This document shows positions 58,955 through 62,954 of a stretch of 64,000 bases of DNA, piece by piece. The DNA is from Halapricum desulfuricans (GTDB lineage Archaea; Halobacteriota; Halobacteria; Halobacteriales; Haloarculaceae): assembly GCF_017094525.1 (NCBI RefSeq), contig NZ_CP064788.1, forward strand, positions 2,403,030-2,467,029, given 5' to 3'. Within the stretch, counting starts at the first letter, position 1. Every line of letters begins with the position of its first letter. A program made the translations under genes and the position numbers. Under the pieces are notes generated by a model. It did not search any database and was not told the DNA's origin. It was given only the letters and a program-made list of their open reading frames with translations.

Positions 58955-59233
58955 ATGATCGTTTCGGGGCCGCCACTGTCAGTCGTCGTCGGCGTCCTCA
59001 CGCGGACGGTCGTAGCGGGCAGTGGTATCGTCGGCACAGCAGCGCTGTTGCTTTTCGTTCCGGTGTATGCGCTGCGCCTGCTGACGGCGGTGTTGATCGT
59101 CGGTGCCGCCGTACTCGCGCTGATGATTCTTCAGTCGGTGCTGATCACGCTGTTCGCGCTCGCGGGCCTGCTCGCGCTCGCGTCGCTACCGGTGTCGGTC
59201 GAGCGGACTACATCGAAGGCGCTCGAACAGTGA
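58955..59233 (+). CDS. Small two-to-three helix membrane protein, unknown
   Basis: This 92-residue protein is almost wholly hydrophobic (about 15-85), with short polar ends. A strong TATA-like AATTATAATTATAG (58919-58932) lies about 28 bases upstream, so it is probably transcribed on its own, with a leader of only a few bases. I know no family. Confidence 0.6.
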   Translation: MIVSGPPLSVVVGVLTRTVVAGSGIVGTAALLLFVPVYALRLLTAVLIVGAAVLALMILQSVLITLFALAGLLALASLPVSVERTTSKALEQ

Positions 59234-59306: not shown

Positions 59307-59504
59307 TTACGCGGACGCCTCGTAGCCGGCGTCGGCGACTGCCGCGACCAGTTCGGCGGTGTCGGCCGAGCCGTCGACCTCGGCGACGTCGGCTTCGTGG
59401 TCGGCCGACGCACCGGTCACGCCGTCGACGGCTTCCAGCGCCTCGACGACGGCCTGTTCGCAGTGTTCACAGCTCATCCCTTCGACGGTGAGTGTCAGGC
59501 TCAT
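59307..59504 (-). CDS. copZ: Copper chaperone CopZ (HMA domain)
   Basis: This 65-residue heavy-metal-associated domain carries the copper-binding GMSCEHC motif at residues 9-15. It would bind Cu+ in the cytoplasm and hand it to the CopA ATPase encoded at 60.3 kb. It is divergent from the Lrp-TRASH regulator; each promoter has a copy of a CTTTCG-type palindrome. Confidence 0.93.
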   Translation of the reverse strand: MSLTLTVEGMSCEHCEQAVVEALEAVDGVTGASADHEADVAEVDGSADTAELVAAVADAGYEASA

Positions 59505-59545
59505 TGCGAGTGAACGTACGTGCTGGCGGTCTTTTGCGATTGCTC

Positions 59546-59559
59546 CTTCTAGACGAAAG
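59546..59559 (-). promoter_or_regulatory. Candidate copper operator, copZ side
   Basis: CTTTCGTCTAGAAG on the minus strand, about 42 bases before the copZ start. It shares the CTTTCG half-site with sites at 59577 and 60233. Confidence 0.45.
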
Positions 59560-59576
59560 CTGACGGTCCGACACAG

Positions 59577-59590
59577 TTTCGAGTCGAAAG
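59577..59590 (+). promoter_or_regulatory. Candidate copper operator, regulator side
   Basis: TTTCGAGTCGAAAG contains a perfect inverted repeat TTTCGA-G-TCGAAA, about 44 bases before the regulator start at 59634. It is the most symmetrical of three related sites. Confidence 0.5.
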
Positions 59591-59633
59591 TAGCGTCCGG
59601 CAGATACTCCCGTCCGAGGGACGTAGCAGTCGT

Positions 59634-60215
59634 ATGCGCCAGCTGGACGAGACGGACCTGGAGATCCTGTCGCTGCTCGCGGCGGACGCCCGCCGGCCCT
59701 ACAGCGAGATCGGCGAGGAGATCGGCCTGTCCGGGCCGGCGGTCTCCGATCGGGTCACGCGGCTGCAGGAAGCGGGGATCATCCGCAACTTCACGATCGA
59801 CGTCGACCGCTCGGAACTGCGGGCCGGGGTGCCGGTGTTGATCCGACTCGAGACGACGGCGATCGACCGGCTCCGGGACCGACTGCGCGAGGCCGACCCG
59901 GTCGAGCACGTGTTCGTCACCGCCGAGGGCGAGGTCTGGTTTTACGCCCGCGCCGAGGCCCGGAACGTCCGCACGTGGGTCGAATCGCTGCTGGGTGAGG
60001 CCGAAGCCACATACACTGTCACGCTGGTCGAGGAAGCCGAGTGGACGCCGTCGATCGACGGCCTGGAGTTCGCGCTCACCTGTGCGGAGTGTGGCAACAC
60101 GGTCGACGCCGAGGGTGAGACGGCCCGGATCGACGAGGAGGTCTATCACTTCTGCTGTCCGTCCTGTCTCGATCGCTTCCGAAGCCGGTATCAGCGGCTC
60201 GAAGAGAGCGCGTAG
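59634..60215 (+). CDS. Lrp/AsnC-type copper regulator with TRASH domain
   Basis: This 193-residue protein has an N-terminal Lrp-type HTH (LDETDLEILSLLAADARRPYSEIGEEIGLSGPAVSDRVTRLQEAGIIRNF), a middle part similar to the AsnC ligand domain, and a C-terminal TRASH metal-binding domain with CAEC and HFCCPSC cysteines. It matches the haloarchaeal regulator (VNG1179C type) that turns on a copper ATPase when copper is high. It lies between copZ and copA and is well placed to regulate both. Confidence 0.9.
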   Translation: MRQLDETDLEILSLLAADARRPYSEIGEEIGLSGPAVSDRVTRLQEAGIIRNFTIDVDRSELRAGVPVLIRLETTAIDRLRDRLREADPVEHVFVTAEGEVWFYARAEARNVRTWVESLLGEAEATYTVTLVEEAEWTPSIDGLEFALTCAECGNTVDAEGETARIDEEVYHFCCPSCLDRFRSRYQRLEESA

Positions 60216-60232
60216 GGCCACATCGCCGCTCA

Positions 60233-60247
60233 CTTTAGAATCGAAAG
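60233..60247 (+). promoter_or_regulatory. Candidate copper operator, copA side
   Basis: CTTTAGAATCGAAAG, with inverted ends CTTT and AAAG, lies about 75 bases before the copA start at 60321. It shares TCGAAAG with the site at 59577. It may also include a TATA-like CTTTAGAA. Confidence 0.45.
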
Positions 60248-60320
60248 CATGGGCGGGCAGCGAGCCCCGGTCTCGAAGCAACAAACCGCCTAAGCGAGGG
60301 GACCGTAGGAACAGGTAACG

Positions 60321-62954
60321 ATGAGTACGCGAACGACACAGCTCGACATCACGGGGATGTCCTGTGCCAACTGTTCGGGGACGGTACAGGACGCCCTGGA
60401 GTCGCTTTCGGGCGTCGAGTCGGCGACGGTCAACTACGCGACCGACGAGGGATCGGTCACGTACGACCCCGATCGGGTTTCGCTCGCCGAGATCTACGAC
60501 GCGATCGAGGAGGCCGGCTATGGCGTGGTCTCGGAGACAGTGACAGTCGGGATCTCGGATATGTCCTGCGCCAACTGCGCGCAGGCCAACGCGACCGCCC
60601 TTGAGGCGACGCCGGGCGTCCTCAGCGCGGAGGTCAACTACGCGACCGACGAGGCGCAGGTGACCTACAACCCGGCCGAGGCGAGCCGGGAGGACTTCTA
60701 CGACGCGATCGAGGAGGCCGGCTACGAGCCCGTTCGCGAGCAGACCGGCGAGGACGACTCGACGGACGCTCGCGACGCCGCCCGCGACGCCGAGATCCGC
60801 CGCCAGCGCAACCTCACGCTGTTCGGGGCGGCGCTGACGACGCCGTTCCTGCTGTTCATGCTCGATCGCTTCCTGCTCGGCGGGAGCGTCTTCCCCGAGG
60901 CGATTCTGGGCGTCGAGATCGGGTGGGTCGAGTTCCTGCTGGCGACGCCCGTGCAGGTCGTGCTCGGTCGGCAGTTCTACAGGAACTCCTACAAGGCGAT
61001 CGTGACCAACGGCCAGGCCAACATGGACGTGCTGATCGCGCTGGGTTCCTCGACGGCCTATCTCTACTCCATCGCGTCGCTGACGGGCCTGATCGCGGGC
61101 GGGCTCTACTTCGACACGGCGGCGTTCATCCTGGTGTTCATCACGCTGGGCAACTACCTCGAGGCTCGCTCGAAGGGGCAGGCCAGCGACGCGCTCCGGA
61201 AGTTGCTGGAGATGGAAGCCGAGACGGCGACGATCATCGCCGGCGACGGGACCGAACGGGAAGTCCCCCTGGAGGACGTCGCAGTCGGCGACCTGATGAA
61301 GGTCCGGCCGGGCGAGCGGATCCCGACCGACGGCACCGTCGTGGACGGACAGAGCGCGGTCGACGAGTCGATGGTCACCGGCGAGAGCGTCCCCGTCGAG
61401 AAGAGCGAGGGCGACGAGGTCGTCGGCTCGACGATCAACGAGAACGGCGTCCTCACCGTCAAGGCCACCAAGGTCGGGGCCGACACGGCGCTCCAGCAGA
61501 TCGTCCAGACGGTCAAGGAGGCCCAGTCGCGCCAGCCCGAGATCCAGAACCTGGCCGACCGCATCTCGGCGTACTTCGTGCCCGCGGTGATCGCGAACGC
61601 CCTGCTGTGGGGGACGGTCTGGTTCCTGTTCCCCGGGGCGCTGGCGGGCTTCGTCGACTCGCTGCCGCTGTGGGGGCTGGTCGCCGGCGGGCCGGGCGTC
61701 GCCGGCGGCGGCGTCTCGATCTTCGAGTTCGCCGTCATCGTGTTCGCATCGTCCGTGCTGATCGCCTGTCCCTGCGCGCTGGGGCTTGCAACGCCCGCGG
61801 CGACAATGGTCGGGACCGCGATCGGCGCGCGAAACGGCGTCCTGTTCAAGGGCGGTGACGTCCTCGAGCGCGCCAAGGACGTCGACACGGTTGTCTTCGA
61901 CAAGACCGGAACGCTCACCGAGGGCGAGATGGAGTTGACCGACGTGATCGCGCTCGATTCGGTCGGCGACGCTGTCGCTGACGGCGGCGAACCGCCGGTC
62001 GCGGACGGCGAGGGCGAACCGGCGGCCGACGGCGGGGCGCTCGCGACCCGCGAACGGATCGGCGAGACGGAACTGCTCCGGCTGGCGGCGACCGCCGAGC
62101 GCGGGAGCGAACACCCCCTCGCACAGGCGATCGTCGAGGGCGCACGCGAGCGCGGTATCGAGATCGGCGACGCCGAGGCGTTCGAGAACGTCCCCGGGCA
62201 GGGGATCCGGGCGACCGTCGACGGTCGCGAAGTGCTGGTCGGCAACCGGAAGCTGCTTCGCGAGCACGGGATCGATCCCTCGCCGGCGGCCGACACGATG
62301 GAGCGACTCGAAAGCGAGGGCAAGACGGCGATGCTAGTCGCCTACGAAGGTGACCTCGCTGGCGTCGTCGCCGACGCCGACACGGTCAAACCGAGCGCGA
62401 AAGAGGCCGTGAGCGCCCTTCGAAAGCGGGGCATCGACGTGATGATGATCACCGGCGACAACGAGCGGACCGCCCGGGCGGTCGCCGAGCGGGTCGGGAT
62501 CGACCCCGACAACGTCCGGGCGGAGGTCCTGCCCGAGGACAAGTCCGACGCCGTCGAGGCGATCCAGGACGAGGGACGACAGGCGATGATGGTCGGCGAC
62601 GGCGTCAACGACGCGCCGGCGCTGGCGGTCGCCTACGTCGGGACGGCCATCGGTTCGGGCACGGATGTCGCCATCGAGGCGGCGGACGTGACGCTGATGC
62701 GAGACGACCCGATGGACGTGCTCAAGGCCATCCGGGTCTCGGACGCCACGCTCCAGAAGATCAAGCAGAACCTGCTGTGGGCGCTGGGGTACAACACGCT
62801 GATGATCCCGCTGGCGTCGCTGGGGCTGCTCCAGCCGGTGCTGGCGGCCGCGGCGATGGCCTTCTCCAGCGTCTCGGTGCTGACCAACAGCCTGCTGTTC
62901 CGGGCGTACACCCCCGACCGGGACTACAGGCTACTGGGTCGGCTGCGGCGGTAG
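60321..62954 (+). CDS. copA: P1B-type copper-exporting ATPase
   Basis: This 877-residue pump exports Cu+ with ATP. Two N-terminal HMA domains have CxxC pairs (Cys15-Cys18 and Cys83-Cys86). The membrane metal site is CPC at 483-485, the phosphorylation site DKTGTLTEG at 527-535, and the hinge motif [10 protein letters not shown] is present. The last helices carry the NALLW-type [12 protein letters not shown] and [15 protein letters not shown] residues of the copper subgroup (P1B-1). A low-complexity insertion ([19 protein letters not shown]) follows the phosphorylation domain start. The gene is preceded by a candidate copper operator. Confidence 0.96.

Follow-up and report, generated by a model that had tools for sequence, protein, structure and literature searches.

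The window, a 64,000-nucleotide stretch of the Halapricum desulfuricans genome (NZ_CP064788.1, positions 2,403,030 to 2,467,029), contains a copper locus in which the chaperone gene copZ is transcribed divergently from an Lrp-TRASH regulator gene that is followed by copA (Table 1), an order that most of 80 relatives share with the window. The copZ product matches NCBIfam CopZ_AFE_1862 just below the cut-off (4.6e-21) and the copA product exceeds the cut-off of TIGR01511 (copper-translocating ATPase). The TRASH domain of the regulator is recognized by a second Pfam family, PF08394 (3.8e-6), and C150, C153, C174, C175 and C178, invariant among eight sequences, are the conserved C-terminal TRASH cysteines. 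With its Lrp/AsnC-type helix-turn-helix, C-terminal TRASH domain and location in a P1B-ATPase/chaperone cluster, the regulator is of the archaeal CopR (Lrp-TRASH) kind, and its TRASH family is present in 281 of 293 haloarchaeal genomes. A 92-aa hydrophobic open reading frame without a Pfam match adjoins copZ (58955-59233, plus strand). Cassettes of copZ, regulator and copA that hardly differ from one another occur in about 15 genera (L056-L075), at least once on a plasmid, which looks like recent horizontal spread.

Table 1. Genes, candidate operators and putative promoter elements of the copper locus (window coordinates).
Feature	Position	Strand	Characteristics
copZ	59307..59504	-	65-aa HMA-domain copper chaperone; ATG at 59504; Pfam HMA 1e-14
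Putative copZ core promoter, BRE/TATA-like GGAGCAATCGCAAAAG	59531..59546	-	-27 to -42 from copZ ATG
Candidate operator 1, copZ-proximal CCTTCTAGACGAAAG (the copZ site of the original prediction)	59545..59559		9.0 bits, rank 4 in the 64-kb window
Candidate operator 2, copZ-distal and regulator-upstream GTTTCGAGTCGAAAG	59576..59590		18.1 bits, rank 2 in the window
Possible regulator TATA element GATACTC	59603..59609	+	-31 to -25; assigned by position only
Lrp-TRASH regulator	59634..60215	+	PF24273 TRASH_HVO_1752_C 3.5e-25; HTH_AsnC-type 1.3e-15
Candidate operator 3, copA-distal CTTTAGAATCGAAAG	60233..60247		22.1 bits, rank 1 in the window; -88 from copA ATG
Degenerate copA-proximal candidate operator	60264..60279		half-site TCTCGAAGC at 60271-60279; 31-32 bp from operator 3
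Putative copA core promoter, BRE/TATA-like AACAAACCGCCTAAG	60280..60294	+	conserved at -41 to -24 in 61 copA promoters
copA	60321..62954	+	877-aa P1B copper-export ATPase, two HMA domains; Pfam E1-E2_ATPase 3.1e-51

The original prediction had proposed that one palindromic motif with a common CGAAAG half precedes copZ, the regulator gene and copA and serves as binding site of the regulator. All three sequences are present as described, CTTCTAGACGAAAG at 59546-59559, TTTCGAGTCGAAAG at 59577-59590 and CTTTAGAATCGAAAG at 60233-60247, and, aligned as 15-mers in one register (Table 1), rank among the top four sites of the window. Operator 2 includes the perfect palindrome TTTCGA-G-TCGAAA, is spaced by 31 bp from operator 1 and is located at -58 from the regulator ATG, a position occupied at -54 to -60 in relatives. 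The degenerate copA-proximal site has a sub-threshold score in the window, with a full site at that position in many relatives. As to the promoter elements, the putative copZ core promoter coincides with the A-rich stretch that 35 copZ promoters conserve at -26 to -44, and many relatives have TATTGTATCC at roughly the same place as the candidate regulator TATA element.

Across 30 loci whose regulators belong to this TRASH family, sequences close to a single palindrome occur at approximately -88 and -57 relative to the start of the regulator gene and again shortly after its stop codon. Expectation-maximization motif searches of 49 dereplicated promoters retrieved ACTTTGGATTCsAAA from the regulator-side region (log-likelihood ratio 296) and CTTTsGAwTCsAAAn from the region after the regulator (289), compared to 60-71 for dinucleotide-shuffled controls of both searches; each motif correlates with its own reverse complement at 0.94 and the palindrome common to both is CTTTSGAWTCSAAAG. 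On the copZ side, the de novo search returned the copZ core promoter first (TTTGTssnTTnCTGC, plus strand) and did not return the operator, so that the copZ-side sites are supported by position and matrix, the de novo search aside.

Conservation upstream of copA in other haloarchaea, the check that had been proposed along with the motif, turned out to be nearly complete, as at least one site is found in 60 of 61 copA promoters, as well as in 34 of 35 copZ promoters (dereplicated and aligned on the start codon). The main site is located at -83 to -88 from the ATG (typically near -86) and often accompanied by a second site at -52 to -56 (near -55), with a spacing of 31 bp in 19 copA promoters and of 30-32 bp in 11 copZ promoters. 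Downstream of the sites, from approximately -41 to -24, lies a distinct A-rich block that is presumably the BRE/TATA core. Judged from these alignments, the sites are used as pairs approximately 31 bp apart just upstream of BRE/TATA; as 31 bp corresponds to three helical turns, the paired sites lie on the same face of the DNA. In the window, one such pair (59545/59576) belongs to copZ and the other, 60233 with its degenerate partner near 60264-60279, to copA. The three predicted sites are thus real, but are parts of two paired operators rather than one motif per promoter, and the site assigned to the regulator, which indeed lies upstream of that gene, is at the same time the distal copZ operator within a pair common to copZ and the divergent regulator. 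The copA promoters of one genus (L287-L291) have a drifted site with a core GAAAC and an A-rich right half, for example CTTTGGAAACAAAAA, whose position is the same in all of them, perhaps together with a co-evolved regulator.

The significance of the sites was assessed with a scoring matrix built from 74 sites of other genera, the genus of the window being left out. A first-order Markov model predicts 5.5 sites per 64 kb at 9.0 bits, 0.005 at 18.1 bits and 0 at 22.1 bits. With 5.5 chance sites at its score, the copZ-proximal site is not significant on its own; it is backed by its position (-88 to -94 in relatives) and by stronger matches at the same place in sister species, CCTTCGAGACGAAAG (L186) and CCTTCGATCCGAAAG (L187). 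As the CGAAAG half occurs 35 times in the window, the original observation as first made was weak evidence, and it is the full palindrome, not the half, that is special. Genome-wide counts beyond the window are pattern searches rather than full matrix scans; by this measure CTTTSGANTCSAAAG with at most one mismatch occurs twice in the whole 2.89-Mb genome, both times at the cop locus. A second exact 13-mer in the genome (C1:1308143) was dismissed as it is situated inside a creatininase-like coding sequence. Among 293 haloarchaeal genomes, the exact 15-mer CTTTSGANTCSAAAG is found at 31 places compared to 2 for the reversed control pattern; 20 of the 31 are within cop loci, one of them counted by its adjoining TRASH match, and 2 more are near cop-like genes. 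Approximately one third of the places are not beside cop genes. An Rfam search gave no family matching the operator region, and no operator site was found at the other HMA ATPase gene of this genome.

The association with copA persists when the genes are unlinked. An additional set of 40 copA upstream regions includes 32 in which the 2.5 kb before copA contain no regulator. A site scoring 12 bits or more is retained in 29 of these 32 (15 bits or more in 24), compared to 0.6% of 320 control stretches. The element therefore goes with copA and does not serve as terminator of the regulator gene. Regulators distant from copA, on the other hand, are mostly without an operator site: no good site was found at three stand-alone regulators (L307, L310, L314) and none at three further regulators away from copA (L308, L309, L313), while regulators divergent from copZ and far from copA (L305, L306, L312) have the copZ-proximal site only. 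The -57 site is often kept in loci without an adjacent copZ (L103, L113, L119), which makes autoregulation likely in part of the group.

Several sites are found in other contexts. In genome G097 (L137 / L263), copZ keeps a pair at -82/-52, although no PF24273 regulator and no CopA ortholog were found in that genome. Exact CTTTCGATTCGAAAG is present just upstream of a major facilitator (MFS) transporter gene in three haloarchaeal families (L215, L216, L217; position 1501), as a single site without a 31-bp partner, and marks either a further target or the site of another factor. In L203 (1501-1515), CTTTGGATTCCAAAG is located 116 bp upstream of a gene for a small Met/Gly-rich SHOCT membrane protein near a TetR-like gene, a possible further copper target.

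One genome of the set (G064) we take to be that of Halobacterium salinarum, since its bacteriorhodopsin is 100% identical to that of H. salinarum. Here the TRASH regulator and copA are on different contigs; CTTTCGAATCAAAAG precedes copA at -85, and a pair at -86/-54 precedes one copZ. No site was found at the unlinked regulator, at the HMA gene beside copA or at two other P-type ATPase genes. According to the original reports, VNG1179C of H. salinarum activates yvgX and two metallochaperones in a Cu(II)-dependent manner (PMC3600143, where it is printed VNG1197C; PMC3551603), its copper regulon comprises yvgX/VNG0700G, VNG0702H and VNG2581H, and its own transcript is unresponsive to copper (PMC3551603, PMC3600143). 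With a site preceding the copA gene that VNG1179C activates, the motif lies where that regulator acts. Among its known targets, a site is thus found upstream of copA and of one copZ and none at the VNG0702H-like gene beside copA, possibly because this gene is reached by read-through from copA.

Cumulatively, the palindromes are very probably operators of the Lrp-TRASH regulator, arranged in pairs for copper-responsive activation of copA and copZ. Conservation at copA and copZ, retention when the regulator is encoded elsewhere and the site at H. salinarum copA make the proposed Lrp-TRASH operator the best explanation of the motif, as far as sequence comparison can tell. One dimer, probably within an octamer, would read each 15-bp CTTTSGAWTCSAAAG palindrome and the oligomer would span both sites of the approximately 31-bp pair, with the proximal site abutting BRE/TATA of the target gene. 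Copper would be sensed by the TRASH cysteines, upon which the bound protein would raise transcription of copA and copZ, and the divergent copZ pair, upstream of the regulator promoter, probably sets the basal level of the regulator. Counting against this reading are the low score of the copZ-proximal site and the degeneration of the copA-proximal site in this genome, the missing site at the VNG0702H-like gene of H. salinarum, the different motifs obtained by ChIP-chip for the H. salinarum Lrp family (PMC4177876) and the roughly one third of exact sites that are not beside cop genes. Neither the G097 copZ pair without a recognized TRASH regulator nor the exact sites upstream of the MFS gene in three families are explained by it. 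Our confidence is evenly balanced on a more general model, in which haloarchaeal copper promoters have an exact helical-phase architecture in common: a pair of Lrp-TRASH operators separated by three turns, the inner operator lying next to BRE. Copper would then turn the DNA-wrapped oligomer into an activator while still DNA-bound, and at the present locus copZ and the regulator would share a single divergent pair.

Alternatively, the palindromes might be operators of another factor with control over copper genes, the Lrp-TRASH protein not being the binder. The latter two unexplained observations would fit such a factor; nevertheless it is improbable, as the sites flank the Lrp-TRASH regulator in most genomes with a linked cluster, the gene with the best site in H. 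salinarum, copA, is a known target of activation by the TRASH regulator, and size, symmetry and position resemble the site of Pyrococcus furiosus CopR. Chance similarity picked by eye, which the abundance of CGAAAG in the window and the chance-level score of the copZ site alone might suggest, has next to no probability and is refuted by the fixed positions that the sites keep across dozens of dereplicated promoters, together with the specificity observed in 293 genomes.

The haloarchaeal BRE consensus is near CGAAA. The resemblance of CGAAAG to this element, along with proximal sites that touch the BRE/TATA region, could indicate that the repeats are ordinary basal promoter elements rather than operators. 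This is highly improbable, though, because the conserved unit is the full palindrome, the distal copy at -84 to -88 is far from the core, where a BRE/TATA-like block of its own is conserved from -41 to -24, and the 15-mer with at most one mismatch occurs nowhere in the genome outside the cop locus. That the copA palindrome, which begins 17 bp past the regulator stop codon, acts as transcription terminator of the regulator gene has a negligible probability: no T run follows the palindrome, the search found no terminator-like site, and conservation at -83 to -88 of copA without an upstream regulator refutes this reading, which was dropped.

As operators of the Lrp-TRASH regulator, the palindromes provide a precise candidate binding site for the copper regulator of nearly all haloarchaea. 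For the H. salinarum ortholog, the literature found reports ChIP-chip that did not resolve an operator; the motifs derived from such data for the Lrp family of H. salinarum are AT-rich and TATA-like, unlike the present operator (PMC4177876), and no operator sequence was found in the available text on VNG1179C (PMC3551603, PMC3600143). The literature search gave no published haloarchaeal operator or spacing, one of which may be contained in Kaur et al. 2006. The fixed 31-bp pairing beside BRE furthermore bears on the activator/autorepressor duality of one Lrp-family protein, which, as far as the available text of PMC7830388 goes, is disputed between Pyrococcus and Thermococcus CopR.

Among characterized systems, P. 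furiosus CopR (PF0739), described in the available text of PMC7830388 as forming octamers, activating copA and repressing its own gene, likewise combines an Lrp-type helix-turn-helix with TRASH in a cop gene cluster and positively regulates copA. It recognizes the 15-bp semi-palindrome TTNNCAWWWTGNNAA directly upstream of BRE, a size and position that the window sites share by sequence comparison. In contrast, copR and copA are divergent in P. furiosus, 31-bp pairs were not found in that text, and the cop-motif TTNNCAWWWTGNNAA is not matched, as the window sites and the consensus CTTTSGAWTCSAAAG, compared by eye, are without the CA...TG core. CopT/CopR of Saccharolobus solfataricus, although from a distant phylum, is according to the available text of PMC7830388 and PMC3600143 also an activator, and its cop cluster likewise unites a TRASH regulator with a chaperone and CopA. 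Closest is the VNG1179C regulon, with an orthologous Lrp-TRASH regulator, CopA as target and the same palindrome at H. salinarum copA and one copZ; the H. salinarum regulator is, however, unlinked and without a site of its own, whereas the regulator of the window resides between copZ and copA with operators in common. While the Lrp-TRASH regulator, its targets and its role in the copper response are already known, the probable DNA site is supplied by the present comparison.
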